NCBI GenBank assembly: GCA_947496235.1
Contig: CANMCE010000002.1
Location: 186,001-250,000, forward strand
Length of the DNA: 64,000 bases
Origin: an uncultured Glaciecola sp.
Lineage (GTDB): Bacteria; Pseudomonadota; Gammaproteobacteria; Enterobacterales; Alteromonadaceae
Direction of reading: 5' to 3'
Shown: positions 13,092-46,614 of the stretch, one piece after another
Numbering within the stretch: the stretch's first letter is position 1
Layout: every line of letters starts with the position of its first letter
Notes under the pieces: model-generated
Told to the model about the DNA's origin: nothing
The model's input: only the letters and a program-made list of their open reading frames with translations
Databases searched by the model: none
Program-made: the position numbers and the translations under genes

Positions 13092-13166
13092 GGAGCCGTA
13101 GTTCATTATTTCTCCGCGATTTGATAAGACCTCTGGAAAATTCCTGAAATAATGAACTACGGCTCC
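13092..13166. repeat. Hairpin repeat, locus A (single module)
   Basis: Two perfectly complementary 21-nt arms (13092-13112 and 13146-13166) begin with GGAGCCGTAGTTCATT and close a 33-nt loop. The stem should be very stable. The same module recurs at 14004-14125 and 46488-46614. Its loop shares GAAAA(T/C)TCCTGAA with locus C. It lies between efpL and a membrane-protein gene, where it could act as a terminator in both directions. Confidence 0.9.
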
Positions 13167-13184
13167 ATTTTTCTACTACATTAT

Positions 13185-13204
13185 TTAAACTACGACTTCA
13201 TTTG
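13185..13204 (-). repeat. Degenerate copy of the hairpin-repeat module
   Basis: TTTAAACTACGACTTCATTT differs from the intact module TTTGAACTACGGCTCCATTG at only a few positions. It has no partner arm and lies 11 bp before the start of the next gene. Confidence 0.6.
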
Positions 13205-13215
13205 TAGGAGGAGAT

Positions 13216-14001
13216 ATGAAAACAGGGAAATTTAATAATACTTTAGCGCTGGTGAGTGGTTCTATAGTTTTCATACTCTATTTGTTCACCTTTGTTATGT
13301 TAACCGAATCTCGGTGGAGATTTCTGGGGAACTACTCCGAAACTGTTTTTACCTTTATCATTCCAATGGTGTATCTGCTTATAGGAATAGTATTGGTTTT
13401 TTGGCTGATATCGTTTTGCGTCAGTATAGTCAGACTCATAGGCGAAAGTTCTCCGCTCCAAGACCAAAGTGAGGTAAATAAGACCCTACAGAACAATTTG
13501 ATTCGACATCTAAGAGTCATTGGTATTTCTTTGATGTTTATCTTCGCACTAGAAATTTTAAATGATGAAGTCGAAGAAGAAATTTCTTTTGTAATGCTGC
13601 TAACGCTCGCCACCTTAATTCCTATTTTAATCGGTATTTTTGATACTGTATTACCGAGCGTAAACAATATATTTCTTCCACGATGGACGTTTGCAGGATG
13701 GTTTTCAGTCATAGGGTTTGGCGTATTGCTAGCCATTCCATTTTCCGATATTCAACAAGCGACGCAATTTGCATCCACATTTTTTACTGAAACTTGGAAA
13801 CTAGTCTCAGGAAGCGAAGAAGCATTAAAGGCTGAATATGTTTTAGTCTCGGTGATCTACCTATTTTTAACTTTCTATTATCTGTACAAAATAATCGTGC
13901 AATGGAAAAAAATTCGTGGCGATATCTACACGCTATATCGAAAGCTACGATATTTAGGTTCGAAACACATCAGAAAACAACAAGACAGTTCAGAATCATA
14001 A
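13216..14001 (+). CDS. Multi-pass membrane protein of unknown function
   Basis: A 261-residue inner-membrane protein with about six hydrophobic segments (approximately residues 10-30, 43-70, 95-112, 118-138, 155-172 and 210-228) and a basic C-terminal tail rich in K and R. I do not recognise a family. A strong AGGAGGAG site lies just upstream of the ATG. The gene stands alone between two copies of the long hairpin repeat (13092-13166 and 14004-14125), an arrangement that isolates it transcriptionally and makes it resemble a cassette. Codon use looks like that of its neighbours. Confidence 0.7.
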   Translation: MKTGKFNNTLALVSGSIVFILYLFTFVMLTESRWRFLGNYSETVFTFIIPMVYLLIGIVLVFWLISFCVSIVRLIGESSPLQDQSEVNKTLQNNLIRHLRVIGISLMFIFALEILNDEVEEEISFVMLLTLATLIPILIGIFDTVLPSVNNIFLPRWTFAGWFSVIGFGVLLAIPFSDIQQATQFASTFFTETWKLVSGSEEALKAEYVLVSVIYLFLTFYYLYKIIVQWKKIRGDIYTLYRKLRYLGSKHIRKQQDSSES

Positions 14002-14003
14002 AT

Positions 14004-14125
14004 AATGGAGCCGTAGTTCAAACAATGGAGCCGTAGTTCATTCTTTCTAAAATGTATCTTGATTCTGCTATCCCCGGCTAAGAAAGAATGAACTACGGCT
14101 CCATTGTTTGAACTACGGCTCCATT
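14004..14125. repeat. Hairpin repeat, locus B (double module)
   Basis: Perfect inverted arms of 45 nt (14004-14048 and 14081-14125) enclose a 32-nt loop. Each arm holds two copies of TGGAGCCGTAGTTCA separated by AACAA. The innermost part of the stem (TTCTTTCT with AGAAAGAA) differs from loci A and C but is still fully complementary. The hairpin starts 3 bp after the stop of the membrane-protein gene. Confidence 0.92.
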
Positions 14126-14250
14126 GTTTTTAAGCTCGCCACCCTACTAAATGACTCCAAGTAAACTCTTCAAACTTTTTTGACGGGTTTTCCCTACGCT
14201 TTGCGCTTTACCTTATTAAGGCAAAAATTTTATCCCATTGGAGGTAGTCA

Positions 14251-14316
14251 ATGGCATTTGGTAAACAAGCCAAAAAAGCATATCTACTTTTTCCATGGAG
14301 TTGGAGAACACAATGA
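14251..14316 (+). CDS. Putative 21-residue leader peptide coupled to the surface-protein gene
   Basis: ATG at 14251 has an excellent GGAGG six bases upstream and opens a 21-codon ORF (MAFGKQAKKAY then LLFPWSWRTQ). Its TGA (14314-14316) overlaps the ATG of the 2065-residue protein as ATGA. Both the ribosome site and the exact overlap suggest translational coupling or a regulatory upstream ORF. The peptide has a basic N-terminal half and a short hydrophobic patch, with no family recognised. Expression is not shown by sequence alone. Confidence 0.5.
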   Translation: MAFGKQAKKAYLLFPWSWRTQ

Positions 14317-17300
14317 AACAGATATTTCCCAGTCACCTGTCGCGAGTAGGCGCGGCGGTACTTTCTGGCTTACTAGTCATTACCCCTAGCGTATTGGCGG
14401 AAGATAAAACACCAGCAGATAACTCTGATTTAATCGATCAACAATCTTTTTTAATCGGCGCGCTCGATACAGCAATTGTTGCTGGCTTCGTGCCTTTTGA
14501 ACCAGTAAGCAAACCAGCGGAATTATTGGATCTCTCTACTAACTTAACATTAAAAGCAGTTGCGCCAGCACTTTATATTCCCAATGACTTAACTTTACTG
14601 CCAGACGCAAGTATTACCGACGATCTAGACACCTATGGCAAGGATTGCTACCGAAATTTCCATCTTCCGCAGAATTTTACAAAAGAAGGTGATACCTACA
14701 CTTATGATTACGAAAACTGGTTTGGTTTTTGGGACATTATTCCGCTACCTGGCGACAACGAATGGTTTGATTTTGGAACCCCTGAGGTTCGCCACGCGAA
14801 TACAGGTGTAAAACTTTCGATGACATTGTACGGTGATGTCAACGATTTACCGGATCTAATTACCTTAAGAGAAGGGCGCTACGACGTTAAATGGCGAGCT
14901 ACCAGTCACTTATCACCCTTTTGGGATATCGCTCTTCCCGTTGCGCTAATTTGGCCAAACCTATCGGTCGAAACCCGTTATGGCGCTTCTGTCACAATGA
15001 AAGCGGCAGGGAAAAGTTCAAAAGCGGCCCGTGGATTTCGCTATTATTTGCAAAAATCAGCTAAGTCCATTGCTGAAGCCGCTTCTATTTCATTCGCCGA
15101 CTATGTAGTGAACAATGAACTAGGTGTCTACGATGACAACTTTATCATTGGTATGCTGACTGACACTATACCAACCCATTCGAATGCGGCTACCCAAACC
15201 ATTACGATTCTTGATATTCATACGCCGCAAATATCTACTTCACAGCAAAGCGTAGTGGCAGAAGCGCGTAACTTTGGCGGTTCCTATTTCGAAAGTATTG
15301 AATCAGATTTAATCGACACCCTAACTTATGCAGATCCTTGTAAGCGCCCTGTGACCTTAACCAACAACGCACCAGAATTTTTGCCTATTGGCGAAAATAT
15401 TGAAATTACCTGGACCGTGAGTGACGGTGGAATATATGCTCCTAATGTTGCGCCGACCATGTCGATTACTCAAACAGTCAGAGTAGAGGATACCCAAGGG
15501 CCTATACTTGTTCCGCCTGCGGGATTCTCCCAATATGCAGAAGCACCTGTGGATACCAGTGATCAGAACTTTAACGCTGGTGTTCCACTGGTGGCAGATT
15601 TAGCTAACCCTAATCCGGTAGTAAGTAGTAACTTACCAGATACCTTGGCGTTAAACCGACGATATGTGGTGAATTACAGTGCCGTTGATGCAACAGGTAA
15701 TGTCACGGCCGCTGACGAAAACAATCCTGATGCATATTCACAAATAATCACGATTAAAAGTCCTGGCACTAACACGGCTCCTTCAGCGACTGCCCAACAA
15801 GCCTCAACCAACACCTCTGTGCCAGTGGCGATAACCTTAACGGGTATGGATAACGATATTTTGGATGGCATACCAGATCCATTGGCTTTTGGGATAGTTG
15901 ATAGACCTGCTAATGGTGAGTTTGTCGCGCCCCTATATCCTTACTTTATCGAAGATTATCGACTGCAACCTGAAATCCCTATTAATGGTGATATCAGCTA
16001 TGAGACCTTAGCATGTCCAAGCGACCCTATGGATGGTAAAACGTTAGAGGCAAGTTTAGCGCTGCTACATTACCAGTATCAAGATGAGTACATGGAAAAG
16101 TGCTATTGCGACGGCACAGGTGGCGACAAGCAAATTCCCGGTGACTTTATTTTCAACCCTCAGTTTATGCATATCACCGACGATGGCATCTTGTATGTCA
16201 CTGATCAGCGTTGGGGTTGTTATGATGGTAATCATGATGCCCGCCGAGGCAATCGAATTGCTAAATTCAAAGATGACGAATTACTGGCGGAAAATACCAA
16301 TATCCCAAGCAATTTGGATATTTTCCAAATGGATAAAGAGCAACGTATTTGGTATCGCTATTTAACCGGTGGTGGCGATAAAGAGCTCTTTATTAATGGC
16401 TTAAACGCCAATCTTCAGCCCATTACCACTAGTCCTGCAGGTGCAAAATATAGTCGCGCCACGTTAAAAATGAGCGAAGACGGTTTAGAATTTGATGCAG
16501 GTAATTTGGTCCGAACCCATGTAGACAGCGAAAGAGGTGTTGTTTATGTCAACGACAAACACCGTATTTACATGTTTGATGCGCAAGATCCTGAACGCTT
16601 TTTAGGGGCAGCCAAAAATGAAGAGCGATTCTTAGAAAATTGTTTGTCAGCTGGCGCGGGTTCGCGAGATGGTTATTGGATGGTAACTGATACCCAAGGT
16701 AGCTTGTATCAAATCTGTTCTACTGAAATCCATAAAATCGGACCGCCTCAGATGATTGATGGCGAGCTACACATCGGCGAATACATCGGCTGGATGGGTA
16801 AGTGTACGGGCAACAAACAACACCCAGAAACCGGAGTTCCTTATAACTACTGTGATGTTGATAATCAAGTCTCAAAAGGCTTCCAATGTACAGATGAAAC
16901 CTGCGAAAGGCCAACAGACAACTTAGACTTACACGGCGCTAATCCTGGCCAATTTAGTTTTGCTCGTCATTTGGATATAGATCCTAACGATGTGCTCTAC
17001 ATTGTAGACAGCGGCAACCAACGTATACAACGATTTTCAGCAGACGGTACTTTTGCTGGCGAAGCTAAATCAACCGGTGAGGGCGTTACTCAAGACGGCA
17101 GTTTTGTATTAGGTAACATGGGCAGTCCAGAAAATGTCTCGGTTAACAGTACCGAGTTTCATGTGTTAGAGGCAGATCCACAAAATGCTGACTACTTCTT
17201 ACATATTTTTAAAACGCTACCCTTTTACGATATTACGACTGATAGCGCAAAAGTTGATTATGTTTCTGATATCAATTTCCAAGGCACAGACACTTTTACT

Positions 17301-20300
17301 TATTTGGTCGATGATGGCATTGATTTAAGCGATGTAGCTACCGTTAGTGTCGATGTGTCAAGGGCTTACCGAGCACCTGAAAATCTGCGCGTAGAATGTT
17401 TCAATGATAGTAATTTTACAATACCAACAGCTTGTGACAAAACAAGTGAAGCAGGTTCGATCTGGGTACGCTTTTTCGCAGATGATAAAGATGGCTTTAT
17501 TGGTTACGGCGGTTTAGATCAGTTAACGTTCGAGATTACTCAAGCACCAGAAAATACCACTCTCACGCTACTTGATACTCAAGTTGACCGTGCTGATTAT
17601 CGACTCGATGCATCAACAGACTTCTTTGGAATTGATACCTTTAGCTTTAGAGCAACCGATGGTGATAAATATTCAGAAGTATTCATCTTAGAATATGAGG
17701 TTGAACCTACAGCAGATCTATTAGAGTTCACTCTGCCACATGATGAAGAAATTCGTGTTGCACGGGGTTTTTCTCAAGCTTATGTGTTTGAATTTAACGA
17801 CCCTGATAGGGAATCATCAGCGCAACCTCGGGCAGATGAAGTCATTTTTGGTGATGGTACCTCTTCAAAAAGAACCGAAGGTTGGCAGAATATTGGTGTT
17901 TACGACGATGATGACGAACCCGTTGATCCGCAAACCAACACCTTACCCGGTCAAGGTATAGTCTCAGTGGCCAGAGCCTTTGATCAAGACTCTGCGGGAA
18001 TAAGTTTGTGTATTACTGACTTTTCCGCCTATGACATGCCTGATCCAACAGAATTGTTATGTCAAACAACGCCACCAATAAAAGCCATTTCAGTTACTCA
18101 AGTCATTTTGAGCAACGAATCGCAAGATATTGCAGAGCCAGCCGCAGATTTCGATTTGAATATGCTAGTGGTAAACCAAAAACCTTCAACTTGGGCAGGA
18201 TATACGGCAGAAAATAATCTCGTAAGTTTTGATTTGCCTGACGGCGTTGAAATGACGCAAAGAGACAACCGATGTGTTCGTGCTGGCAAACAAGTGACTT
18301 GTGTACTAGGTAATTTGGCGGTTGAAGAAGAAAAATTATTAGAGTTTAAAGTTCGCTTCGACCCTCAAGTAGGCCAAGATGAAAAACATTTCACCTTTGA
18401 AGTACAACATTCTGATGCTGGGCCAAGTTTAGAATCGTCTAGAACAGTTAAGATGACAGTATCCATGGCAGATGACGACGATGATGGCACTATTAACTAC
18501 CTAGACGCCTTTCCCAATAATCCAGTTTATGCCAATGATACCGATGGAGATGGTATAGCCGATGAATGGGAAACCGAATACGGACTTAACCCCAATGATG
18601 GCAGCGATGCCAACCTCGACAGTGATGGAGACGGAGCGACTAACCTAACAGAGTTTCAGAACCGCACCGCGCCTTTGATTGCCGATGCCGCTCATGCTGC
18701 TGCGCGTATTACCTCAGCTGCGGCAAATATTAATCGGGAATATTCAGGTTATCTTGGCTCTAATATAGCGGCAGGTGATTTTAATGGCGATGGCTACATG
18801 GACGTAGTGGCTTCGGCACCTAATTCCAGCAATTTGGATGGCGGTTTTGGATATGTACTAGTGCAATACGGTAGCGAATCAGGATTAACCAACACCACCG
18901 AAGTATTGATGATAGAGTATGGTTTTATTCGAGAAAACCTTGCTGCAGGCGACATTAATAACGATGGCATTGATGATATTGTCACTCAATCCTATTTACA
19001 TGTTAATGTGTTTTTAGGCACTGAAAACGGGTTTTTATCTCCCTTTGAAATAGAAAGCCAAGGCAATGTGGCTACCTATGGAACCTCATTAGCTATAGCT
19101 GATATAGATGGCGACGAGCTGAATGACTTGTTGGTTGGATCACTTTTTTACAGCAACAATGGTGTTGATACATCAGGTGCTGTGCATGTTTACCTAGGGC
19201 GCACTGATTTCTGGCGAGACGCGAATCCAGTGCCAACAGAAACCCTATCCATAACTGATTCGGATCAGTCAGGCGCAAGCATGGTAGTCGCAGATATTGA
19301 TGGCGATGACATCTTAGATATCATCGTTGGTGCACCCAATATGAATAGCGGCCGCGTTGATATTTATTTAGGTGGAAATATTGACTGGTCGCAAAGCACT
19401 GAAGGCACTGATGATTTTATTTTGTCTGACATTACGCTCTATGGTGAAGCTGAATCTGATTACTTTGGCTATAGCCTATCCAGCGGACAGGATGTGGATG
19501 GAGATGGCATTGCAGATTTGGTCATTGGCGCATATCGTCATCTTGGCAAAGGCGCGGTTTATTTATATCAAAGTAGCGATAATCCTTGGTCTGGGGCGCA
19601 AAACCCAGTAGCAAGTTATGTGCTCTACGGTGATCAGGAGGCTGAGCAGTTTGGTCTCGCGGTTGAATTAATGCCAAATATGGCGTTTACAGACCAGCCC
19701 TCGTTATTGGTGGGTTCAAGCCAGTTTAATGCGCCAACAGATGAAGCACCGGATACTGAAAATCATGGCAAAGTGACCTTATATTCCGATGCGCTTTTAG
19801 CAAACGCCTATCACAGTTGGACAGGAGAAGAACAGTCGCATTTTGGTTATGCTATTGCTTATCTTGGAGATTTAAATGCAGACCAACAGGCAGATTTTGG
19901 TGTTGGTGCGCCTTATCTGTTTGGTGGCGGACAGGGTGATGTCTTTATCTATTATGGCGGCGCCACTGGTCAGCAATTAGATTCTGACTTCGATAATATC
20001 GCAGATGGCTTTGATAATTGTCCAAGTGTTGTGAATACCGATCAAGCGGATATGGATGGCGACGGCATTGGTGATCTTTGTGATAGTACCGATGACACCG
20101 ATAGTGACAATGATGGCGTGCCCGACATAGAAGATGCCTTCCCTAACGATCCAAATGAGTGGATTGATACGGATGGTGATGGTATTGGAAACAATGGGGA
20201 TACAGATGATGATGGAGACGGTGTTAGCGATTCTGAAGACGCATTTCCTTTAGATCCTGCCGAATCAGTTGATACCGACGGCGATGGTATTGGTAACAAT

Positions 20301-20510
20301 GCTGACACCGATGATGACAACGACGGTGTGCCAGATGCTCAAGATGCCTATCCATTAGATCCCAACAGGTCTGAACAACCCGCGCCACCGACGCCAGCAC
20401 CGCCCTCGGGTGGAAATGGTGGCAGTGAAAGTGGCGGTGGTTCCACAAGCATTGTTTGGTTTATGTTATTACTGGTTAGTATCTACCTTAGACGCAGTGT
20501 AACTAAGTAA
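14313..20510 (+). CDS. Giant surface protein with FG-GAP, cadherin-like and TSP3 repeats and a GlyGly-CTERM tail
   Basis: Exported to the outer surface; probably adhesive or structural. Signal peptide 1-29. Then in order: an unassigned N-terminal region, HYR-like and cadherin-like modules (about 360-560), an NHL-type propeller (about 600-980, e.g. DPNDVLYIVDSGNQRIQRFS), more cadherin-like modules with DTFTYLVDDG, a calcium-binding DxDGDG stretch near 1400, about seven FG-GAP/integrin-alpha repeats (1470-1890), and thrombospondin type 3 calcium repeats (about 1895-2010). The C-terminus has glycine-serine linker, one TM helix and RR, the GlyGly-CTERM signal cut by rhombosortase. Start 14313 has GGAG six bases upstream. 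Confidence 0.88.
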   Translation: MKQIFPSHLSRVGAAVLSGLLVITPSVLAEDKTPADNSDLIDQQSFLIGALDTAIVAGFVPFEPVSKPAELLDLSTNLTLKAVAPALYIPNDLTLLPDASITDDLDTYGKDCYRNFHLPQNFTKEGDTYTYDYENWFGFWDIIPLPGDNEWFDFGTPEVRHANTGVKLSMTLYGDVNDLPDLITLREGRYDVKWRATSHLSPFWDIALPVALIWPNLSVETRYGASVTMKAAGKSSKAARGFRYYLQKSAKSIAEAASISFADYVVNNELGVYDDNFIIGMLTDTIPTHSNAATQTITILDIHTPQISTSQQSVVAEARNFGGSYFESIESDLIDTLTYADPCKRPVTLTNNAPEFLPIGENIEITWTVSDGGIYAPNVAPTMSITQTVRVEDTQGPILVPPAGFSQYAEAPVDTSDQNFNAGVPLVADLANPNPVVSSNLPDTLALNRRYVVNYSAVDATGNVTAADENNPDAYSQIITIKSPGTNTAPSATAQQASTNTSVPVAITLTGMDNDILDGIPDPLAFGIVDRPANGEFVAPLYPYFIEDYRLQPEIPINGDISYETLACPSDPMDGKTLEASLALLHYQYQDEYMEKCYCDGTGGDKQIPGDFIFNPQFMHITDDGILYVTDQRWGCYDGNHDARRGNRIAKFKDDELLAENTNIPSNLDIFQMDKEQRIWYRYLTGGGDKELFINGLNANLQPITTSPAGAKYSRATLKMSEDGLEFDAGNLVRTHVDSERGVVYVNDKHRIYMFDAQDPERFLGAAKNEERFLENCLSAGAGSRDGYWMVTDTQGSLYQICSTEIHKIGPPQMIDGELHIGEYIGWMGKCTGNKQHPETGVPYNYCDVDNQVSKGFQCTDETCERPTDNLDLHGANPGQFSFARHLDIDPNDVLYIVDSGNQRIQRFSADGTFAGEAKSTGEGVTQDGSFVLGNMGSPENVSVNSTEFHVLEADPQNADYFLHIFKTLPFYDITTDSAKVDYVSDINFQGTDTFTYLVDDGIDLSDVATVSVDVSRAYRAPENLRVECFNDSNFTIPTACDKTSEAGSIWVRFFADDKDGFIGYGGLDQLTFEITQAPENTTLTLLDTQVDRADYRLDASTDFFGIDTFSFRATDGDKYSEVFILEYEVEPTADLLEFTLPHDEEIRVARGFSQAYVFEFNDPDRESSAQPRADEVIFGDGTSSKRTEGWQNIGVYDDDDEPVDPQTNTLPGQGIVSVARAFDQDSAGISLCITDFSAYDMPDPTELLCQTTPPIKAISVTQVILSNESQDIAEPAADFDLNMLVVNQKPSTWAGYTAENNLVSFDLPDGVEMTQRDNRCVRAGKQVTCVLGNLAVEEEKLLEFKVRFDPQVGQDEKHFTFEVQHSDAGPSLESSRTVKMTVSMADDDDDGTINYLDAFPNNPVYANDTDGDGIADEWETEYGLNPNDGSDANLDSDGDGATNLTEFQNRTAPLIADAAHAAARITSAAANINREYSGYLGSNIAAGDFNGDGYMDVVASAPNSSNLDGGFGYVLVQYGSESGLTNTTEVLMIEYGFIRENLAAGDINNDGIDDIVTQSYLHVNVFLGTENGFLSPFEIESQGNVATYGTSLAIADIDGDELNDLLVGSLFYSNNGVDTSGAVHVYLGRTDFWRDANPVPTETLSITDSDQSGASMVVADIDGDDILDIIVGAPNMNSGRVDIYLGGNIDWSQSTEGTDDFILSDITLYGEAESDYFGYSLSSGQDVDGDGIADLVIGAYRHLGKGAVYLYQSSDNPWSGAQNPVASYVLYGDQEAEQFGLAVELMPNMAFTDQPSLLVGSSQFNAPTDEAPDTENHGKVTLYSDALLANAYHSWTGEEQSHFGYAIAYLGDLNADQQADFGVGAPYLFGGGQGDVFIYYGGATGQQLDSDFDNIADGFDNCPSVVNTDQADMDGDGIGDLCDSTDDTDSDNDGVPDIEDAFPNDPNEWIDTDGDGIGNNGDTDDDGDGVSDSEDAFPLDPAESVDTDGDGIGNNADTDDDNDGVPDAQDAYPLDPNRSEQPAPPTPAPPSGGNGGSESGGGSTSIVWFMLLLVSIYLRRSVTK

Positions 20511-20530
20511 TTGCTAGCAGCGCGAGACAG

Positions 20531-20546: not shown

Positions 20547-20562
20547 ACTTCTCCAAATTCAC

Positions 20563-21228
20563 CTAAATTCTCCTGCGTACACTTGAAAGAATATAACCAA
20601 CGGATATAAACAAAACAGCCCCTAAAGAAAAGGCAATTGTTTTTAAATATTCTGGGGCATAGCCATCAAATTTAAAGTTAGATAGGCGGGATTCTTGGTG
20701 CATAGTGTTCCACCATTCGGGAGACTGGTGTGATAAAAATAAGACGATTGCTGCGACCGCAACTAAAAGTAGATAAATAAAGTAAAGTTTTGGGTTATTT
20801 AACACTTTTGTAGTGCCAACGTATATTCCAAAACACACAACAAGAAATAATACTGTAAATCCTGATCTAGCGTCCCATACCCAGAAATCTCCCCATACTG
20901 GAACAGCCCATATAGCCCCTGTTAATAGAGTCATTAGAGTTAAAAATACTATGCAAGCGGCCATTGCTCGGAAAAATAGGAGAAGCAAGGTATTTGCTGA
21001 ACCGAATTTCTTAAAGCTAATGAAGGCTAGTATGAAAAACAATATGCCTGCTGAAAATGCCGCTGCAACATGAGGAAAAAGCCACCTGACATAAACACCC
21101 ATTTGGTAGTCTAACGGTACTACATAAAATATTTGATATGCGGCGATTATCGCTAGCATTAACCCAGTAGAAACTAGCGCCAAAGGCACGCCTAAGGTGT
21201 TTAATCTAAAAGTATCGAAACTATTCAT
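20563..21228 (-). CDS. Stand-alone CcmC/CcsA-type haem-handling membrane protein
   Basis: An integral membrane protein of the haem-handling WWD family used in cytochrome c maturation. Six hydrophobic segments are visible in 221 residues. The tryptophan-rich signature is WGDFWVWDAR (about residues 112-121), and the haem-ligand histidines of CcmC have counterparts in FPHVAAAF and SPEWWNTMHQ, the latter almost the CcmC sequence EWWNTLHQ. No other ccm gene is nearby; a real CcmC normally sits in ccmABCDEFGH. It may be a paralogue with a special substrate or a fragment of a dispersed system. Neighbours give no further clue. Confidence 0.8.
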   Translation of the reverse strand: MNSFDTFRLNTLGVPLALVSTGLMLAIIAAYQIFYVVPLDYQMGVYVRWLFPHVAAAFSAGILFFILAFISFKKFGSANTLLLLFFRAMAACIVFLTLMTLLTGAIWAVPVWGDFWVWDARSGFTVLFLVVCFGIYVGTTKVLNNPKLYFIYLLLVAVAAIVLFLSHQSPEWWNTMHQESRLSNFKFDGYAPEYLKTIAFSLGAVLFISVGYILSSVRRRI

Positions 21229-21294
21229 TCATTTTTATTATTGGTTTTAGCCAAAAAATAAGTCAAACCTACACTAGATATTTTGAGATTAACT

Positions 21295-22236
21295 CTATGG
21301 TTTTGCGTTTACAACTTTAGACTCGGCGGCGACAACTTTGCGTTTTGCCTTGAGTGTTAACACTCCCGCCAAAACCAAAACCATACCAATGATCTGTAAC
21401 ATGGTGATGGGTTCATCTAAGATCAACCAGCCAAAAATTATCGTAAGCGCTGGACCAATTGTACTTATTAGCACGACTCTGGCTGCACCAATATACTTTA
21501 TAGCACTGGATTGTAAAAACACTGGAAGCACAGTAGAGAACAGCGCCATCATAAAACAAAGCGTGTATATCTCCATGGGTTGCACTAAATTCGAAACCGG
21601 TAATTGAATAAAAAAGTGTAATTCAACAGCCAGTATAGATACCAACATGGCCAGTACTGAAAACTGCTTAGATCCCAGTTTTTTAATCATAGGTTCGGAA
21701 AATGCTTGGTAAAAAGCGTAACTAATTGCTGAGCCTGCGATTAAGAAAATTCCCCAAATAATCTCCTGATTGTTCTCGTTCACGGACAAATCGCTTATAC
21801 AGGCAAAAAGTACGCCCAGTGTTGTAAGTAGAATAGGGGGAATCAATCGTTTTTCAAACGATTGACCAAGAAAAATTACCCCCATGAAAATAGTCAGAAT
21901 GGGGTAAGAAAACAAAATGATCCTTTCTAAACCAGCGGAAATATACTCTAGCCCCATGAAATCCAATATGGATGCTGCGTAATACCCTGCCACTCCTAAA
22001 CAACTAAGTAGAAATACTTCTTTGAAACTCAGTCGGTGGAAACTTTTCAAGCCATGTAAGCTAATCAATAAGAAAAATGGCAGAGCAAAAATCATACGCA
22101 GACTTAATAGCGTAATAGGTTCAATGGGAGCTATCATGTAGGCTTGCTTAACAAATATAGCTTTTAACGAAAAGCCCGTCGCTGATAATACGGCAAGTAA
22201 AACGCCTAGTTGAGTAAGGTTATATCGAGATTTCAC
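21295..22236 (-). CDS. EamA/DMT-superfamily transporter
   Basis: A 313-residue inner-membrane carrier with ten hydrophobic segments arranged as two EamA halves (about residues 12-145 and 158-298), as in RhaT/YdcZ-like metabolite exporters. The second half ends with the typical GWLILDEPITMLQIIGMVLV pattern seen in this superfamily. It uses a GTG start. Substrate cannot be read from the sequence. It stands between convergent or co-directional genes with its own short leader and no evident operon partner. Confidence 0.85.
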   Translation of the reverse strand: MKSRYNLTQLGVLLAVLSATGFSLKAIFVKQAYMIAPIEPITLLSLRMIFALPFFLLISLHGLKSFHRLSFKEVFLLSCLGVAGYYAASILDFMGLEYISAGLERIILFSYPILTIFMGVIFLGQSFEKRLIPPILLTTLGVLFACISDLSVNENNQEIIWGIFLIAGSAISYAFYQAFSEPMIKKLGSKQFSVLAMLVSILAVELHFFIQLPVSNLVQPMEIYTLCFMMALFSTVLPVFLQSSAIKYIGAARVVLISTIGPALTIIFGWLILDEPITMLQIIGMVLVLAGVLTLKAKRKVVAAESKVVNAKP

Positions 22237-38691: not shown

Positions 38692-38703
38692 GTTGTTATC
38701 CTT

Positions 38704-39981
38704 TTACTCGTGTTCTGTTCTTTCTATTCCAAGCACTTTTAGTACGTATTTTTCATAAACTGGCTCGCTGGTGCCCGTCTTCATTTTTCGCATAAAGTAC
38801 TTTTCAAAGGCAATTTTGGCAATATGCACCCATTTTCCTTTTTTAAACCAAGTGATATTACGTGGTGGAATTTGCGGCATTGCCACAAAAGCTGCACCAG
38901 TATCCCCCATGTCTGCAAGACATATAGCATGCCAGGTGCCTTTTGTAGACGGCGCCTGACCATCGACAATGATGGCTTTAAGATTATGTGCAATAGCCGT
39001 CATCATGGTTTCGATCATGTAACCTGTTTTTGGCGTCCCCGTTGGCACTGGCGTTACTTCTACTGGCGGAATTGCCACACAAACACCGCCTGAAAAAATG
39101 TTTGGGTAAGTTGGATTGCGTTGATACTCATCGGTGATCACAAAGCCTTTGGGGTTACATAAGCCTTCAACCTTAGCGACCGCATCTATACCTGCAAAAG
39201 GTGGTATCAACATAGAATGATTAAAGGGTAATTCATGTTGATATTCGGCCTCGCCTTTGCGGTTAAATTCCGACACAAACATAGTACCGTCTTCGACTTT
39301 GTCTACACTGGCATTACAAGTCCACTTGATATCCCGAGTACGCAGTTCAGATTCCAATACTGATTTAGAATCGCCAACACCTCCCAAACCAAGGTGACCT
39401 ATGTAGGGCTCGCTAGTAACAAAATGAATCGGTACTTTGTGACGAATTTTTGCGTTACGTAGCGCTTTATCTAATATAAAGGCGTATTCATAAGCTGGGC
39501 CAAAACAGCTCGCGCCCTGAAAAGCACCCACAACCACAGGTCCAGGGTCTTTTACCAATCGTTCGAAATCTTCGTAGCATTGCTCGGCGTGATCAAGGGT
39601 GCAGATTGATTGCGTGTATCCTTTAGGACCTGCACCTGGAATAGTGTCAAAAGCTAATTTGGGGCCGGTAGCTATAATCAAATAATCATAGTCGATAACG
39701 TCCCCTTGTTCGGTCTTCAATTGATTATTCTTGGCGTCAATTTCGATTACCTTACCGCATACAAAACCTATATTTTTTTTACTCAAATATTTTTCAATAG
39801 GTAAGGTAATAGCCTCAGCATGTCGCCATCCGACAGCAACCCAAGGATTTGAAGGAACGAACCTAAACTCAGGCCTTTCATTAACAACAACGACTTCGTG
39901 ATCTTTACCTAAAATTTCTTTTGTTTCATAAGCTGCAGGCATTCCACCTGTTCCAGCACCTAACACCACAACTTTAGCCAT
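38704..39981 (-). CDS. sqr: Sulfide:quinone oxidoreductase
   Basis: Membrane-associated FAD enzyme that oxidises sulfide to sulfane sulfur and reduces quinone. The 425-residue protein has the FAD-binding GAGTGGMPAAYE (8-19), ATGPKLAFDTIPG near 104, and cysteines at 159 (QGASCFGP) and in GGVCVAIPP near 347, the positions of the redox-active pair in SQR enzymes. The C-terminal tail is amphipathic, suiting peripheral membrane binding. It is transcribed divergently from the FisR-type regulator, has GAGAGG before the ATG, and lies about 60 bp downstream of a sigma-54-type promoter. Flavocytochrome-c-type relatives exist, but the context favours SQR. Confidence 0.87.
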   Translation of the reverse strand: MAKVVVLGAGTGGMPAAYETKEILGKDHEVVVVNERPEFRFVPSNPWVAVGWRHAEAITLPIEKYLSKKNIGFVCGKVIEIDAKNNQLKTEQGDVIDYDYLIIATGPKLAFDTIPGAGPKGYTQSICTLDHAEQCYEDFERLVKDPGPVVVGAFQGASCFGPAYEYAFILDKALRNAKIRHKVPIHFVTSEPYIGHLGLGGVGDSKSVLESELRTRDIKWTCNASVDKVEDGTMFVSEFNRKGEAEYQHELPFNHSMLIPPFAGIDAVAKVEGLCNPKGFVITDEYQRNPTYPNIFSGGVCVAIPPVEVTPVPTGTPKTGYMIETMMTAIAHNLKAIIVDGQAPSTKGTWHAICLADMGDTGAAFVAMPQIPPRNITWFKKGKWVHIAKIAFEKYFMRKMKTGTSEPVYEKYVLKVLGIERTEHE

Positions 39982-40039
39982 CGAATTATCCTCTCATTCG
40001 GTTGCCACCGAAATATTTGTAATTTGTAAAACTTATGTA

Positions 40040-40055
40040 AACAAAAGACGTGCCA
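40040..40055 (-). promoter_or_regulatory. Sigma-54-type promoter of sqr
   Basis: On the minus strand TGGCACG-TCTT-TTGTT matches the full -24 box and keeps the 10-base spacing; the -12 element is TTGTT rather than TTGCT, one mismatch at the usually conserved C. The site ends about 58 bp before the sqr ATG. Confidence 0.6.
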
Positions 40056-40137
40056 AAAATGATAAACATCTATCTAATTGAATTTTTTAGAAAAAATACT
40101 CTAAGGAAAAATTAAGTTGTTTTAACGTTGCGTTTTA

Positions 40138-40172
40138 TGTCAAATTTGTCAAAGTTAAAGACAGCAATGACA
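40138..40172. promoter_or_regulatory. Symmetric TGTC/GACA dyad, candidate activator site
   Basis: TGTC at 40138 and 40147 and GACA at 40160 and 40169 form the perfectly symmetric pattern TGTC-N5-TGTC-N9-GACA-N5-GACA. Its centre is about 100 bp upstream of the sqr -24 box, the usual distance for an enhancer of a sigma-54 activator, and it lies just before the regulator's own start, so autoregulation would follow. Confidence 0.55.
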
Positions 40173-40195
40173 GAATAAAAACTAGGTAATTCTTT

Positions 40196-41488
40196 ATGTC
40201 AATCGTGCAATCTATGATCAACGCTATCGATAAACCGGCTATTTTTATTAACAATAATTATGAAATATTGGCTGTTAACGATGCTTATCGAGACACCTAT
40301 GAAACAGAAGTAAAGGTAGGTACCAGTCGTTGTTTTGAAATTTCTCATGGACATAGTAAGCCTTGCGATAAGCATGGCGAGGAGTGTCCAATCCAGCAGT
40401 GTGCTAAAACTGAAAAAGCAGCAAGTGTTATTCACATTCATAATGTGGCCGGTGGTAAAACCTACTGCGATATTTTGATGAAACCGGTTAAGGATGAAAA
40501 TGGCATTACTACCGGCTATCTAGAAATTTTAGACCGCATTAACTTTGCTTCAGCAGAGTCTCAAGACAACAAAATGATAGGCACATCAGCGCCATTTAAG
40601 GAAATGTTAACTAAGATAAATCGCGCAGCAAAATCAGAAATTGCAGTACTCTTGCACGGTGAAACCGGCACAGGTAAAGAATTAGTTGCCAAAGCTTTAC
40701 ATGCTTCTAGTCGAAGAGCTGAAAAGCCCTTTGTTGTTATTGAGTGTACAGGGTTGAATGAGAACTTGTTTGAGTCTGAACTTTTTGGGCATGAAAAAGG
40801 GGCCTTTACCGGCGCCACTCATGCAAAAAAAGGGTTGATTGAAATTGCCAATGGTGGCACGGTATTTTTTGATGAAATAGCCGATGTACCTCTAAGCATG
40901 CAGGTAAAATTGCTAAGGTTATTAGAAACGCAATGCTACCGCACCGTTGGTGGCATTAAACAGCGCAAAGCTGATTTTCGTTTGATCTGTGCCAGCCACA
41001 AGAATTTGCTCGATTTGGTCGACCAAGGGGAGTTTCGACAAGATCTCTATTATCGTATTGCTGGTTTTCCCATCGATCTACCTTCTCTGAGTCAAAGAGA
41101 GGAAGATATACCTGCGTTAGCCAAACATTTTTTAAGTCAATCAGAAATGCGACATAAAAAATTTAGTCCAGAATCCCTTAAAAAACTGTCTGAATACCGA
41201 TTCCCGGGAAATATAAGGGAACTGAAAAATATAGTGGAGCAGGCGGCGTTGTTAGCGAATGAAGATGTTATATCGCTAGATGATTTACCTGCTCAGGTTA
41301 AACCTAATACAACAAACGCAAAGCAAGCCTTAACCAAATTAATGTCCTTGGATGACGCTGAAAAATCCTATTTGCAGCATTTGTGTGAATCAGAGCAATT
41401 ACCAATCGATGAATTAGCAGCTAAATTGGAAGTAAGTACTCGCACACTTTATAGGAAGCTACAAAAATACGGGCTGAAATATGAATAA
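40196..41488 (+). CDS. fisR: FisR-like sigma-54-dependent sulfane-sulfur-responsive activator
   Basis: Enhancer-binding protein of 430 residues. An N-terminal PAS-like sensor (1-120) is followed by an AAA+ domain with Walker A GETGTGKE, the sigma-54-contacting loop GAFTGA and Walker B GGTVFFDEIADVP, and a C-terminal Fis-type HTH (LAAKLEVSTRTLYRKL). The sensor contains C46, C57 and C64; the spacings of 11 and 7 equal those of C53, C64 and C71, the persulfide-sensing cysteines of FisR. C69 is an extra one. It is divergent from sqr, whose upstream region has a sigma-54-type promoter and a dyad. Assignment as the switch for sqr and cyd operons is a strong inference. Confidence 0.85.
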   Translation: MSIVQSMINAIDKPAIFINNNYEILAVNDAYRDTYETEVKVGTSRCFEISHGHSKPCDKHGEECPIQQCAKTEKAASVIHIHNVAGGKTYCDILMKPVKDENGITTGYLEILDRINFASAESQDNKMIGTSAPFKEMLTKINRAAKSEIAVLLHGETGTGKELVAKALHASSRRAEKPFVVIECTGLNENLFESELFGHEKGAFTGATHAKKGLIEIANGGTVFFDEIADVPLSMQVKLLRLLETQCYRTVGGIKQRKADFRLICASHKNLLDLVDQGEFRQDLYYRIAGFPIDLPSLSQREEDIPALAKHFLSQSEMRHKKFSPESLKKLSEYRFPGNIRELKNIVEQAALLANEDVISLDDLPAQVKPNTTNAKQALTKLMSLDDAEKSYLQHLCESEQLPIDELAAKLEVSTRTLYRKLQKYGLKYE

Positions 41489-41497
41489 CGTCAGCCC
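41471..41497. terminator. Hairpin overlapping the end of fisR
   Basis: GGGCTGA (41471-41477) pairs with TCAGCCC (41491-41497) between the convergent fisR and DUF2892 genes, followed by AATTTCG. Likely a weak bidirectional terminator. Confidence 0.45.
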
Positions 41498-41516
41498 AAT
41501 TTCGATATGAAAATCG

Positions 41517-41738
41517 TTATTCAGTAATTCCTGTTGCTAACTCTTTTTCGGTTTTAAAGCCAAAGACTTTACGCAACACTATGGTCGCAGGACAAAAGCC
41601 GGTAAAGCTTTGTTGGAATAGGTTGGCACCAATAAATACAGTAAACCACACAAAATTTGGATGCACCCAAACAGTGAGCGCTACTGACAATAACACCATA
41701 AAGCCTGCAAAAGCGGTTAATGCACGTTCAGATGACAT
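41517..41738 (-). CDS. DUF2892 (YgaP-type) inner-membrane protein
   Basis: A 73-residue protein with two membrane helices and the DUF2892 signature GANLFQQSFTGFCPATIVLRK, as found at the C-terminus of the rhodanese YgaP. TGAGGAG lies five bases before the ATG. Only 13 bp separate it from the barrel-protein gene upstream, so it may be the last gene of the RND operon; on the other side it faces fisR. Stand-alone DUF2892 proteins frequently occur with sulfide-oxidation genes, which fits the neighbourhood better. Rhodanese domain itself is absent. Confidence 0.85.
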   Translation of the reverse strand: MSSERALTAFAGFMVLLSVALTVWVHPNFVWFTVFIGANLFQQSFTGFCPATIVLRKVFGFKTEKELATGITE

Positions 41739-41751
41739 AATTACTCCTCAG

Positions 41752-43056
41752 TTAATAAAAGTATCGATAACGAACAAAGACGTTTGACGCATCTTCAAAT
41801 TGATTAAAAAAAGTGAAAGGCTCATCACCGTAGAATATGTTGAACCCGCCTGATAGTCGCCAGTCGTCAGTTGGGCTATAGTCGGCGGAGAACTTAAAAT
41901 ACCCATCCTGATCAGTGGTTGAAAAAAAGTTAAATCCACTTAAGGTTAGGGTTTGCTGCAAGGCTCTGTACATTAGGCGTTGGGTGATCCAAATTCTACT
42001 TCGACCAATTTCAAATTGTGGAGCAGGGCTATTCGCTATTAGTGCATCGTAGTCGTCATTGCGTTCTAAATACCATTGCACACTGCCGGTAAAATTCTTG
42101 GCTAATTCCTGTTTGTATCCTATCAACCAACGTTGTTGGCTGTTAGGAATAAGAGGATTAGTGCCTTCACTGTCTTCTTTTGAGTCGTATAGAGCAAATT
42201 CAGCATTAAAAAGGCCCGGCCCTAGGGTAGTGATCATACTGGCACCCACTACCTGTAACTCTGAAAATGTAGGCTCGCCTAAAGGAGTCGCACTATTCGG
42301 TGACTTATGAAAGCCATCATAAAAATAAGCTGCGTATTCCGTTGGTCCCACACTTTTATAAATGCGAATCGCATATTCTGGCGAATCGGGCTTTAGCGGT
42401 GATTTGACATCAAATCCTGGCGCTATATTTTGTCCTGCCATTGGCGAAAAGAAAGAGAAATAATCTCCGTTTATGTAGTTGTCAGGAGTGAATTTAGGTG
42501 TTACCACAAAATCCACATTAGCCCAATCGAAAAAGCCGGAGATTTTTGCTGATAAAGAAGGCGCTTTTAAATATTCATCGTCACGTCCCGAAAAGAACGA
42601 CTGGTAATCTTTTGGGAACATATCGTTTAAAAATATGTAATCGCCCGTACCCCAAGTGAGAATTTGTTGGCCAATTTTAACATCAAAGTTTTTACCCCAA
42701 TCTCCTACCGAATCTAGGTTACCTTGCCAAAAGGCCTCACGAACTTGGAGTTTAGATTGCTGTAATACACCGTCGTAGTAAGCATCGGCACTGAATTGTA
42801 AACGCGATGCGGCTAAATCATAGTCGACTTGTATTTGCGCTCTTAAATCTCTCAAGGTGCCTTCGCTGTCAATAACAGGATCAGAGCTTAATCTTGTGCC
42901 TAGTGCCCCCTCAATAAAGCCGGTGATTTGGTAGGCTTTAGCCTCTTCTTCCTCTCCCCAATCGCCCATATCCCAATCATCGTCTTGAGAAAAAGCCATT
43001 GTTGAGCTAAGACCCAAACAAAGGGCCAAGACACTTAATTTACGAAGTTTACCCAT
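41752..43056 (-). CDS. Outer-membrane beta-barrel protein, DUF1302-like
   Basis: A 434-residue exported protein with a signal peptide (MGKLRKLSVLALCLGLSSTM, cut after AFS) and a pattern of amphipathic strands ending in YRYFY with a C-terminal aromatic residue, as in outer-membrane barrels. It carries an acidic DDDWDMGDWGEEEE stretch just after the signal peptide. Start at 43056 gives the cleaner signal; ATG at 43077 would overlap the upstream gene by 13 bp. It sits in a three-gene unit with a LolA-like protein and an RND exporter, so it probably forms the outer-membrane part or receives the cargo. Confidence 0.75.
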   Translation of the reverse strand: MGKLRKLSVLALCLGLSSTMAFSQDDDWDMGDWGEEEEAKAYQITGFIEGALGTRLSSDPVIDSEGTLRDLRAQIQVDYDLAASRLQFSADAYYDGVLQQSKLQVREAFWQGNLDSVGDWGKNFDVKIGQQILTWGTGDYIFLNDMFPKDYQSFFSGRDDEYLKAPSLSAKISGFFDWANVDFVVTPKFTPDNYINGDYFSFFSPMAGQNIAPGFDVKSPLKPDSPEYAIRIYKSVGPTEYAAYFYDGFHKSPNSATPLGEPTFSELQVVGASMITTLGPGLFNAEFALYDSKEDSEGTNPLIPNSQQRWLIGYKQELAKNFTGSVQWYLERNDDYDALIANSPAPQFEIGRSRIWITQRLMYRALQQTLTLSGFNFFSTTDQDGYFKFSADYSPTDDWRLSGGFNIFYGDEPFTFFNQFEDASNVFVRYRYFY

Positions 43057-43064
43057 GGGCTTTA

Positions 43065-43850
43065 TTAATCCAACCATTTTCTTGGAGGGTTACGTAGACT
43101 GCGCTCAGAAAATACATCGTCCTCTAAGCCGACATTATATTTAATATTTCTAAATTCCATCAGGGTATAGGCGTCGTTGGCTAAATCACTGACCTTTGAA
43201 CGCACAACCGTTGGGAAGCCCTCAATGGTCTCAATTTTTACGGCTTCTACTCTACGGTAATTAGTGTCGCCTTTGTTGTAAAAATCAATTAATACAGGCA
43301 GTTTGGTCTCTTTATCTATAGTCACCATGTAATATTCAAATTCAACTGAATCTGGAACTTTTGGAACGGCTTTTAATACATAACTGGTATCGGTTTCTTC
43401 AGCCAAAGTAAAGTCATCTTCACTGATGGCACGACCTGATACATCTTCATAAAAGAAGTGAGAACCCACGAAGGAAGTGCGTTTGTCTCCAGCGGAGATT
43501 CGATTGACTAAATCAAGTCCAGGCGCATACATCCAACGGTCATCATCAACATCAAGTGCTGTATGCTTTTCTACACGAAACACAAAATCTTTGACATCAG
43601 CAGGTCGTGAGAAAAACACCATCATTTGTTGATCGCCGTTGTCTTGGGAGTCACGACGTAAAATAGTAAACTGGCGCAACTGTTTACGCCCTTGAGAGTC
43701 AACAATCATCATTCTGGCATCGGAGCGACCATCATCGCCCGCATAATAAGCGACTTTTTCGGCTTCTTTCACTAAAGCATCGACATCAACGGATGCCAAG
43801 CTAGAAAATGACAATGCAACTAAAGCTAATCCTAAAATTTGTTTTTTCAT
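43065..43850 (-). CDS. LolA-like outer-membrane lipoprotein-sorting protein
   Basis: A 261-residue periplasmic protein with a short signal peptide (MKKQILGLALVALSFSSLAS). It has the long curved-sheet pattern of the LolA_like family that accompanies MMPL/RND exporters: MMVFFSRPADVKDFVFRVEK, WMYAPGLDLVNRISAGDKRT, SFVGSHFFYEDVSGR, and PVLIDFYNKGDTNYRRVEAV. The protein would shuttle a lipid-like or hydrophobic cargo between membranes. It is 18 bp downstream of the RND gene and runs to or slightly into the barrel-protein gene. Confidence 0.82.
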   Translation of the reverse strand: MKKQILGLALVALSFSSLASVDVDALVKEAEKVAYYAGDDGRSDARMMIVDSQGRKQLRQFTILRRDSQDNGDQQMMVFFSRPADVKDFVFRVEKHTALDVDDDRWMYAPGLDLVNRISAGDKRTSFVGSHFFYEDVSGRAISEDDFTLAEETDTSYVLKAVPKVPDSVEFEYYMVTIDKETKLPVLIDFYNKGDTNYRRVEAVKIETIEGFPTVVRSKVSDLANDAYTLMEFRNIKYNVGLEDDVFSERSLRNPPRKWLD

Positions 43851-43868
43851 TTTAGTACTCCAATTAAT

Positions 43869-46403
43869 TTATTTACCGAAAACAAGGCGTTTCGCCATTG
43901 TCATTACCGCTGGTAAGATCAACAAGGTGACCAGCGCAGATATCGCCATAATACTTGCTAAAAAGATACCTACCGTTATATATGGCACCAAAGGGGCAAA
44001 TAATAAAGGTGTGAAGCCCAGCGCAATTACCAAAGCGTTTCGCGTAATTGCAGTCGCTGGTTCGTCAAACATAATGGCGAAGGTTTGTTTTAGATCCTTT
44101 GTTTGTGAATAAGTTTCTCTCGCCCGTTCAAGGAAGTGGATGGCGAAGTCTACTGAAAGTCCCAAGGTTAATGCTGAAAGCACAGCAATGGGCATATCGT
44201 AGTCCTTTCCAACAATGCCAATTAATCCATAAATGAAGGTAATTGTGATGGTCAAAGGTAACATCGCAAGAATGCCGAACACAAAGGATCTGAACAGTAC
44301 TACCATCATGATAAAGACGATGAAAAAGGCACTGATCAAACTGTCTAACATGCCAGCTACCATGTTGTCTTGCCAGACTACGTTTAAGTATGCTTTACCT
44401 GCCCAGCCCAAAGTCAGGTTTGCTGGCAAAGGGTTCTCTTCAATAAATTTGTCAACTTGTTCGATGACCTGAGTCATGTCTTGATTGTCGCCCGAAGTAA
44501 GCTGTAACCAAATCAACGTTTTTTGATAATCTGGGGTAACAAAATGCCATAAGTCTCCCGGACGGTGCGATGATTGATATTGCAATAGCGTTTGGGCAAC
44601 ACCTTGAGGTGAATTTGGAATTTTATAATCGCTAGCCTCACCTGAACGCAACTCGCGATTCACTATCTTTGTGACATCCGCAAGAGAATTGGATTTACCT
44701 ACCAAACCTGAAGCTTGCAGGTAATCCTGCATGTCACTTATGTAAGCTAATAATTCAGGTGACTGGAAAACCTTGGATTGACTTAGAGCCTGCTCCATGT
44801 CGTTGATTAAAATGGATAAATACTGATCTTCTTCATCGGTGACATCTGAGAATAATTTATCATCTATGCGAATTAATAATTCTTGGTATTGCTCACTAAT
44901 GACTTGACTATCTAATTCCTGGACCACATCTTGTACCCAAGTGGTTAAACTTTCTGGTGCGCTTTTTAATCTGTCATTTAAAGGGGCTAAGGTTTCTGTG
45001 CTACTAAGCACCACGTAAGCGTTATAAGTACCTGCAAACTGCTCATTTAACACGCGATCAGCAACTCGAATTTCATGGTCTTGCTTAAACCATCTTACGG
45101 GATTGTCATTAATTTGAATTTGAGTAATACCCCAAACTGAAACCGCGAATACAGCTGCAAAACCTAATACTAAAACCACTCTAAATTTTAACGCAAAACC
45201 GCCTAAACTTTTGGCAAATCGAGCTATTTTACTGCCACCTTGTTGGGAGTGCATGACTTCTTGAAGTTTGTCTAGACTGGATTCATTCATGCGTGATAAA
45301 TAGGCAGGCATAAAAGTAATAGTGATTAAAAACGCCAGTAAAATACCGGTGCCGACAAAAGCACCAAATATTTGTACTGGTGGAATGGGCGTTAACATTA
45401 ACGAGTAGAAACCAATACAGGAAGTAACGGAGGTATACAACATAGGTGTGAATAGATGCCCCACCACTTCTTCAATGGTCTCTTGTAAGTTTCTACCTGG
45501 CTTATAGCGATCGCTGAATTCCGACAATATGTGCACTGAGTCAACCACTGCGATCGGCATTAAAAAGATCGCAATCATTGACGACATAATGTGGACAGTG
45601 AAACCCATTCCAATTAAGGCGCCCATGGTGATTAGAACGGTTGCCATAGCAACAACCATAGGCGCAATGATTAAGGGAATATTGCGGAAAAATATGAATA
45701 ATAGAATGAAAATGGTTAAACCCGCTAGCGGTGCTGAAATTCCCATTTGGATAAACATCTCTACGCCGAATTGATCTTCAGCGACGGGCAATCCAGTGAT
45801 ATACCAATTGGATGTGCCATCTAGTTGATCAATTTCAGCCCGAATTTGCTCAGCAATATTGTAACTTTGATTTTTATCTGCAATGGGCACGTAAATAGCA
45901 GCCGCTTTACCGTTTTGCGAGGCCAAAGTTTCTTGTAGCAGGGGAAGTCTTGCTAAGTTGCTACGGATGTTACTTGCTTCTTCAGCAGATGAGGGTGGAT
46001 TAGACATCATCCACTCAAATCGAATAGTACCGGGAGCTTCTTGGGAAATGTTATCCACTGTGGAAATGGACATTAAATCAGCATTAATAACCCCTTCAAT
46101 TGACAGAATTGACTCTGTAATGTCATAAATGTCAGCAAGACTCTGCTGGGTGAAGACACCATTTTCATCTTGGGTATTCACTATGCCAACCACTATCGCA
46201 TCATGCATGGCGAACTGAGTCTTTACCTCGTTATGAAACACTCTAGCCGGATGCTCTGCATCCAGCATGTTCTCTGGGTCTGTGTCCACTTTTATCCGCG
46301 GCATTTGCGCCGTAAAAGCGATGGCTAAAACAAGTAAAATTCCGTACACCAATTTAGGTTTTTGGGTACAAAAATGGACTAATTTATCTGCAATTGACAT
46401 CAT
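43869..46403 (-). CDS. RND/MMPL-family exporter
   Basis: An inner-membrane transporter of 844 residues with twelve predicted helices in two halves, each followed by a large periplasmic loop (about residues 40-215 and 440-670). The conserved helix 4 charge pattern is seen as GMGFTVHIMSSMIAIFLMPI then AVVDSVHI, and in the second half SALTLGLSVDFAIHFLERARE. No MFP or TolC gene is near; instead LolA-like and barrel genes follow on the same strand, the layout of exporters that move hydrophobic compounds to the outer membrane. Start may also be the next codon (46400). Confidence 0.88.
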   Translation of the reverse strand: MMSIADKLVHFCTQKPKLVYGILLVLAIAFTAQMPRIKVDTDPENMLDAEHPARVFHNEVKTQFAMHDAIVVGIVNTQDENGVFTQQSLADIYDITESILSIEGVINADLMSISTVDNISQEAPGTIRFEWMMSNPPSSAEEASNIRSNLARLPLLQETLASQNGKAAAIYVPIADKNQSYNIAEQIRAEIDQLDGTSNWYITGLPVAEDQFGVEMFIQMGISAPLAGLTIFILLFIFFRNIPLIIAPMVVAMATVLITMGALIGMGFTVHIMSSMIAIFLMPIAVVDSVHILSEFSDRYKPGRNLQETIEEVVGHLFTPMLYTSVTSCIGFYSLMLTPIPPVQIFGAFVGTGILLAFLITITFMPAYLSRMNESSLDKLQEVMHSQQGGSKIARFAKSLGGFALKFRVVLVLGFAAVFAVSVWGITQIQINDNPVRWFKQDHEIRVADRVLNEQFAGTYNAYVVLSSTETLAPLNDRLKSAPESLTTWVQDVVQELDSQVISEQYQELLIRIDDKLFSDVTDEEDQYLSILINDMEQALSQSKVFQSPELLAYISDMQDYLQASGLVGKSNSLADVTKIVNRELRSGEASDYKIPNSPQGVAQTLLQYQSSHRPGDLWHFVTPDYQKTLIWLQLTSGDNQDMTQVIEQVDKFIEENPLPANLTLGWAGKAYLNVVWQDNMVAGMLDSLISAFFIVFIMMVVLFRSFVFGILAMLPLTITITFIYGLIGIVGKDYDMPIAVLSALTLGLSVDFAIHFLERARETYSQTKDLKQTFAIMFDEPATAITRNALVIALGFTPLLFAPLVPYITVGIFLASIMAISALVTLLILPAVMTMAKRLVFGK

Positions 46404-46487
46404 TTCTCAAACATTTGTTTTGTTAAACTAACGTTAAGTAATACAAGAAGAATGCCAAAAGCGCCAGCAAAGCAAGGTTAAAATAAA

Positions 46488-46614
46488 GGAGACGTAGTTC
46501 ATTCTAAAAATGGAGCCGTAGTTCATTATCGCCTCAGCGTAAACATTGAAAACTCCTGAAGCCAAGTTGGCGATAATGAACTACGGCTCCATTTTTAGAA
46601 TGAACTACGGCTCC
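46488..46614. repeat. Hairpin repeat, locus C (nested double module)
   Basis: Arms of 46 nt (46488-46533 and 46569-46614) with a single mismatch enclose a 35-nt loop. Each arm has two modules: an outer GGAG(C/A)CGTAGTTCATT followed by CTAAAAA, and an inner GGAGCCGTAGTTCATT followed by ATCGCC. The inner stem extension (ATCGCC/GGCGAT) differs from loci A and B but remains complementary. It lies between the divergent RND exporter and aldehyde dehydrogenase genes. Confidence 0.92.

Follow-up and report, generated by a model that had tools for sequence, protein, structure and literature searches.

How can the two arms of a long DNA hairpin stay complementary when their inner sequence differs from one copy to the next? 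The question is raised by three intergenic hairpins in the genome of an uncultured Glaciecola sp. (host assembly of 4.42 Mb in 55 contigs), all within a stretch of 64,000 nucleotides, referred to here as the window (contig CANMCE010000002.1, or C2, positions 186001-250000). The hairpins share a module that is dispersed in the genome and is also the terminal repeat of a gene for a REP-associated tyrosine transposase (RAYT; REP, repetitive extragenic palindromic sequence). This transposase unit has an empty site in related genomes, and the arms of the hairpins covary among the copies. The hairpins are probably non-autonomous mobile elements resembling REPINs (paired inverted REPs) and derived from the terminal repeats of that RAYT, which is of the group 1/subclass 2.1 kind (TIRYT, a tyrosine transposase between terminal inverted repeats), because the module brackets the Y1 transposase gene and because 10 of 12 congeners lack the 855-bp unit of transposase and repeats between yebC and rnpB.

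The hairpins and their module

An earlier, sequence-only reading of the window had described three intergenic loci in which a shared module forms inverted pairs around locus-specific but exactly complementary inner arms. All three loci read as described.

13089..13169, no strand assigned: hairpin 1; exact modules 13092-13107 and 13151-13166 facing each other; inner arm TTATTTC; loop of 33 nt; decayed module-like stretches outside on both sides
14004..14125, no strand assigned: hairpin 2, nested; outer module pair (core) at 14007-14020 and 14109-14122, inner pair at 14027-14042 and 14087-14102; the arms share the spacer AACAAT; inner arm TTCTTTCT; loop of 32 nt
46485..46617, no strand assigned: hairpin 3, nested; outer module pair at 46488-46503 (one mismatch) and 46599-46614, inner pair at 46512-46527 and 46575-46590; the arms share the spacer TTCTAAAAAT; inner arm TTATCGCC; loop of 35 nt

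The inner arms are the sequence beyond a 14-nt core of the module, and the exact complement of each is found on the other arm. Hairpins 2 and 3 are double-layered, with 42 of 42 and 45 of 46 positions matching through the outer module, spacer, inner module and inner arm. The folding energies of hairpins 1, 2 and 3 as single-stranded DNA (ssDNA) are 7.4, 18.4 and 18.0 standard deviations below those of dinucleotide shuffles. Ten matches to the module with up to three mismatches occur in the window, compared to 0.35 expected, a number reached in none of 100 shuffles, and all of them fall inside the three hairpin loci.

The family is not limited to these loci; had no others existed, this would have told against the sequence-only reading. 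The 16-mer module GGAGCCGTAGTTCATT has 90 copies in the host genome at no more than one mismatch (reversed control, 0), and a 19-mer version has 104 at no more than three (control, 3). The anatomy of the clusters was read from 30 further host stretches besides the window, and long hairpins are found at 13 loci, among them the three of the window. In each of these, exact modules face each other, an inner arm of 7-9 bp extends beyond the core and the loop measures 32-37 nt; the set comprises the clusters with two exact 16-mers facing across 42-49 nt. A second outer module is present on both sides in nine hairpins, on one side in three and on neither side in one. The remaining clusters are short facing pairs, outward pairs, direct doubles, composites and single copies. 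As in REPINs, the module is over-represented and lies mostly outside genes, and two facing repeats with their spacer fold as one hairpin (13 loci; ssDNA folds of the window's three). By mechanical calls of open reading frames (ORFs), 32 of 37 module clusters are clear of ORFs of at least 90 aa and five overlap one; 18 clusters have tandem neighbouring genes, 10 convergent and two divergent, and seven lie near a contig or stretch edge.

The strength of the stems, and the position of 28 of the 37 clusters between tandem or convergent genes on the same mechanical calls, could suit RNA elements or transcription terminators maintained for their RNA structure. However, hairpin 3 (46488-46614) is flanked by divergent genes, the window contains no Rfam family at gathering score, and a pattern scan of 12900-14400, which counts loops of 3-8 nt only and stops short of the third locus, flagged neither hairpin 1 nor hairpin 2 as a terminator. 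The first 21 base pairs of the aligned stems are free of wobble, and the same module forms the transposase ends. The terminator idea, which the sequence-only reading had entertained, is therefore unsupported, and an RNA function of either sort is extremely unlikely to be what maintains the hairpins.

Four contig ends carry a common composite with up to four module copies (C2, C25, C4 and C13; L010:1-450, L038:1-330 and the last 100-180 bases of L020 and L032). By eye, the sequence before the composite resembles the 3' end of 5S ribosomal RNA (rRNA) at two of these ends, and the composite may sit behind rRNA operons; Rfam called no 5S rRNA on the four contig-end stretches.

The transposase and its empty sites

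The likeness to REPINs had suggested a RAYT or TnpA-REP gene as the partner to look for, and a single gene was found. One match to Y1 transposases in the host genome passes the Pfam cut-off, a gene of 230 aa at C4:247493-248182; another match, with 13.5 bits, falls short of it. The gene is bracketed by inverted double copies of the module, as a cognate RAYT is flanked by its repeats, and the link between RAYT and hairpins is secure by position. The terminal repeats reach into two genes, overlapping the stop codon of the RAYT gene and that of its neighbour yebC (L019:4984-5030, contig C4).

The protein matches PF01797 at 51.4 bits and has an intact HuH motif (NHVH) and an intact Y---NP motif (YIELNP), the features of RAYT/TnpA-Y1 class 2. 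A profile of 22 sequences finds TnpArep (4er8) as its best match among solved structures (E 1.8e-5); phmmer with the host RAYT alone finds nothing in the Protein Data Bank. A C-terminal helix-turn-helix domain belongs to the TIRYT/subclass 2.1 kind; Pfam detects none at E<=5 in the RAYT or in four relatives. The host RAYT has the motifs of the group 1/subclass 2.1 (TIRYT) kind, and its length is near the approximately 238 aa of these proteins, an assignment judged by motifs and length. Inverted repeats are present at its flanks, but they read GGAGCCGT and not GGGGWSAS, the motif stated for many, though not all, TIRYT inverted repeats (PMC3733652).

In the 10 congeners that lack the unit, rnpB follows yebC within about 100 nt; host rnpB was confirmed by Rfam. 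As for the other two, G011 has rnpB elsewhere in the examined stretch and G002 has no rnpB there. One of the hairpins, L030, is absent from congener G004, where the flanks are syntenic and enclose about 220 bp compared to about 470 in the host. This absence and the similarity of certain loops (see below) are what was observed of mobility of the hairpins as units, for which the support is indirect.

Double inverted modules like those of the RAYT also surround about 1.15 kb of contig C13 (L031:2001-3156, C13 about 20801-21956), which contains a NUDIX gene and a maltose-acetyltransferase-like gene. At this site G001 has an AbgT gene directly after rplS, without the bracketed pair; in G004 the place is taken by a more distant AbgT-like gene (45%) and in G011 by an acetyltransferase (34%), while further congeners differ in content. 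The NUDIX gene was found in 10 of 98 genomes of the family, host included. A 235-bp unit on contig C15 (L034:2003-2250) has at its ends the same double inverted modules as the RAYT unit and may be a small non-autonomous relative of it.

A RAYT match at E<=1e-8 is found in 50 of 295 genomes of the order, the host included. A scan of a collection of genome contigs gave 27 relatives, and in 24 of these the best segment is less than 45% identical; for the protein alignment 21 of 29 relative loci were chosen (without L061, L068, L070, L072, L076, L078, L079 and L080). The word GGGTCAG lies inside a repeated word in 18 of 30 RAYT stretches scanned. The nearest relative, in G132 (53%), is accompanied by a different dispersed module with 30 copies, often in short hairpins; of 11 facing pairs at the 24 of 30 places read, six have inner stems of 7-8 bp and five of 0-3 bp. 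Congener G003 has a different RAYT (46% identical) in another place, with a separate repeat, GGGGCCAGGTACC, part of which occurs as facing pairs (L056/L043). The exact 16-mer of the host is absent from 59 other genomes searched, including the 12 congeners. Exact facing GGGGTCAGAGTC occurs in three of the 295 genomes of the order, with one or two hairpins each, in a search that is blind to other modules, and a hairpin pattern search of the genome contigs, which may exclude the host genome, gave no match.

Matching arms and variable loops

Covariation was measured over the 13 aligned inner units, which share a helix of 22 pairs (286 cells), against 500 shuffles. Five rows (w13092, w46512, L014, L026 and L037) were reoriented manually once the loops had been scored; as the arms are symmetric, the pair counts are unaffected. 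The alignment, loop and spacer tests left out L012 (two short facing pairs), the outward pairs L029, L035 and L036, L028, L034, the contig-end composites, the RAYT and C13 brackets and single copies. Base pairing is found in 99.0% of the cells. Pairs 1-21 have no unpaired or wobble cell, and the 22nd has three unpaired cells and one U-G. Cells changed on both sides number 16, compared to 5.7 in shuffles, and the covariation score is 0.160 compared to 0.055; neither value was reached in any of the 500 shuffles. Two counts are not significant, that of pairs changed on both sides (4 versus 3.2, reached in 182 of 500) and that of further pair types (7 versus 6.1, 172 of 500). The covariation of inner arms that the sequence-only reading proposed to look for is present in the 13 hairpins.

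In all nine double-layer hairpins the spacer between outer and inner modules is the same in both arms, and it differs by locus both in sequence and in length: there are eight distinct spacers, of 6, 8, 9 or 10 nt, an agreement seen in none of 100,000 shuffles. Over these nine hairpins 402 of 406 arm positions match. The sequence-only reading had left open whether selection on structure or an arm-copying process was at work, and the alternative still stands; since the spacers are identical in all nine cases, lengths included, arm copying is favoured.

Selection alone could act on the same elements if mismatched hairpins were not copied and second changes restored the pairing base by base. Bertels and Rainey account for the spacers of REPINs by their length and the capacity to form a hairpin and report that compensatory changes are common (PMC3116915), and in the present family the loops vary while the modules are fixed, as selection would have it. 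Against this, matching insertions or deletions are unlikely to arise by separate events, and spacers of four lengths agree in both arms in nine of nine cases; wobble cells, moreover, are absent from the first 21 pairs. Selection as the only cause is thus possible, but we consider it unlikely. Shared length changes are hard to obtain by separate compensation and suggest that one arm was copied from the other. Template switching has been reported to homogenise the arms of inverted repeats and to invert their spacers (PMC8604942), as well as to give rise to stems and preserve them (PMC8794818). The favoured, although unproven, cause of the matching arms is arm copying.

The loops were compared in 78 pairs and two orientations (156 comparisons), with 300 mononucleotide shuffles per pair. 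Likeness at p<0.01 was found in 10 comparisons, about 1.6 being expected; three are forward and seven inverted. The best match is between L014 and inverted L023 (z 6.7), two hairpins whose loops are alike and whose arms read TTATTCC and TTATTTC, so that one pair has changed on both sides. We read these likenesses as probable traces of remote common descent. Inverted matches would fit either insertion in both orientations or inversion of the spacer, which are not separable here, and orientations are partly inconsistent (L014-L026 scores 3.0 inverted and 2.6 forward).

The loops also bear on a further explanation, by which each hairpin was born in situ through inverted copying of one arm next to itself, with local host sequence in between and without movement of a unit. 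The loops seem unrelated at first sight, with most comparisons at chance, and a hairpin can arise in one template-switching event (PMC8794818). However, 10 of the 156 comparisons do reach p<0.01, the loop length is limited to 32-37 nt and the module family is tied to a transposase, all of which make such an origin very unlikely.

Mobile elements derived from the RAYT terminal repeats remain the preferred explanation. The transposase would recognise facing modules in ssDNA folded as a hairpin and would help to copy the hairpin elsewhere, whereby the modules would stay fixed and the arms paired. With less confidence, we suggest that copying at the DNA level, by template switching at replication or by repair within the folded hairpin, keeps the arms identical.

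Several observations weigh against this explanation. The module is not a canonical REP, because single modules do not fold: a 19-nt module has a folding energy of 0 kcal/mol and forms no hairpin alone, direct doubles fold no better than shuffles, and the module lacks what makes a REP, a short palindrome that carries a 5' tetranucleotide at its base. The sequence-only reading was right that the core is unlike the usual REP, and the transposase has the motifs of a subclass for which no REPs are reported (PMC6006769). The W motif of the RAYT deviates, and its match to the NCBIfam family REP_Tyr_transpos (E 1.5e-17, 63.8 bits) is below the cut-off of 80. No transposition event was seen. When window DNA 12300-15300 was compared with the congeners, seven of 12 matched, in the upstream gene only and at 64-68% identity, so that the hairpins of the window itself have no empty site for comparison. 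Loop pairs mostly score at chance level, two of the five covariation measures are not significant, and the lopsided hairpins, with an outer module on one side only (three) or on neither (one), show that arm matching is not universal.

Known systems and significance

The system most similar to the host family is that of the REPINs and group 3 RAYT of Pseudomonas fluorescens SBW25 (PMC3116915). Both have facing repeats, a limited range of spacer lengths, a long ssDNA hairpin, compensatory changes, dispersal outside genes and a single cognate RAYT gene near copies of the repeat. The length of the spacer and the capacity to form a hairpin appear to be critical in SBW25, and the core of the present finding, compensatory arms, is already known there. 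Unlike SBW25 REPINs, the host repeat is not palindromic, many of the hairpins are nested and the motifs of the RAYT are those of subclass 2.1 instead of 2.5 (group 3).

TIRtrons and their TIRYTs (Di Nocera et al. 2013, PMC3733652) likewise have a Y1 transposase between terminal inverted repeats, which also occur elsewhere in the genome as dimers and clusters, but GGAGCCGT of the host does not fit GGGGWSAS. For TIRtrons, the available part of that paper describes neither long nested hairpins whose arms covary nor a bracketed gene pair. The HuH and Y motifs and a length near the 238-aa median place the RAYT close to TnpA-Y1 subclass 2.1 (Quentin et al. 2018, PMC6006769), which is the largest of the RAYT subclasses tabulated by these authors. 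It includes 291 of the 292 group 1 RAYTs of Bertels 2017 (PMC6006769) and probably takes in the TIRYTs. Quentin et al. report no REP-like sequences near its members, whereas the host gene is flanked by dispersed repeats. Homogenisation by template switching (PMC8604942, PMC8794818) also makes arms identical in one event and can invert the spacer; it was shown in yeast coding DNA and in RNA genes, whereas here it is proposed for a transposase-linked family.

No earlier report of this arrangement was found in a literature search conducted mostly at the level of titles and abstracts. What is new is that a subclass reported without REPs has such hairpins, which are little described for this RAYT branch, together with the non-palindromic modules, the nested arms with shared length changes and the repeat-bracketed gene pair that is missing in a congener.

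RAYTs are widespread, and we know of no established cellular role for them. A tentative and rather improbable joint reading is that the terminal repeats of this group 1 RAYT are working transposon ends, which moved both the RAYT gene and the C13 passenger pair (NUDIX hydrolase and hexapeptide acyltransferase), and that an ssDNA hairpin stage rewrites one arm from the other. If so, the whole hairpin family would evolve in concert, arm by arm. The host genome combines a RAYT site that is empty in congeners with a population of hairpins and a bracketed pair of genes, and it allows a test of whether subclass 2.1 still moves DNA, and the hairpins provide a natural data set to tell selection from arm copying behind compensatory changes in stems.

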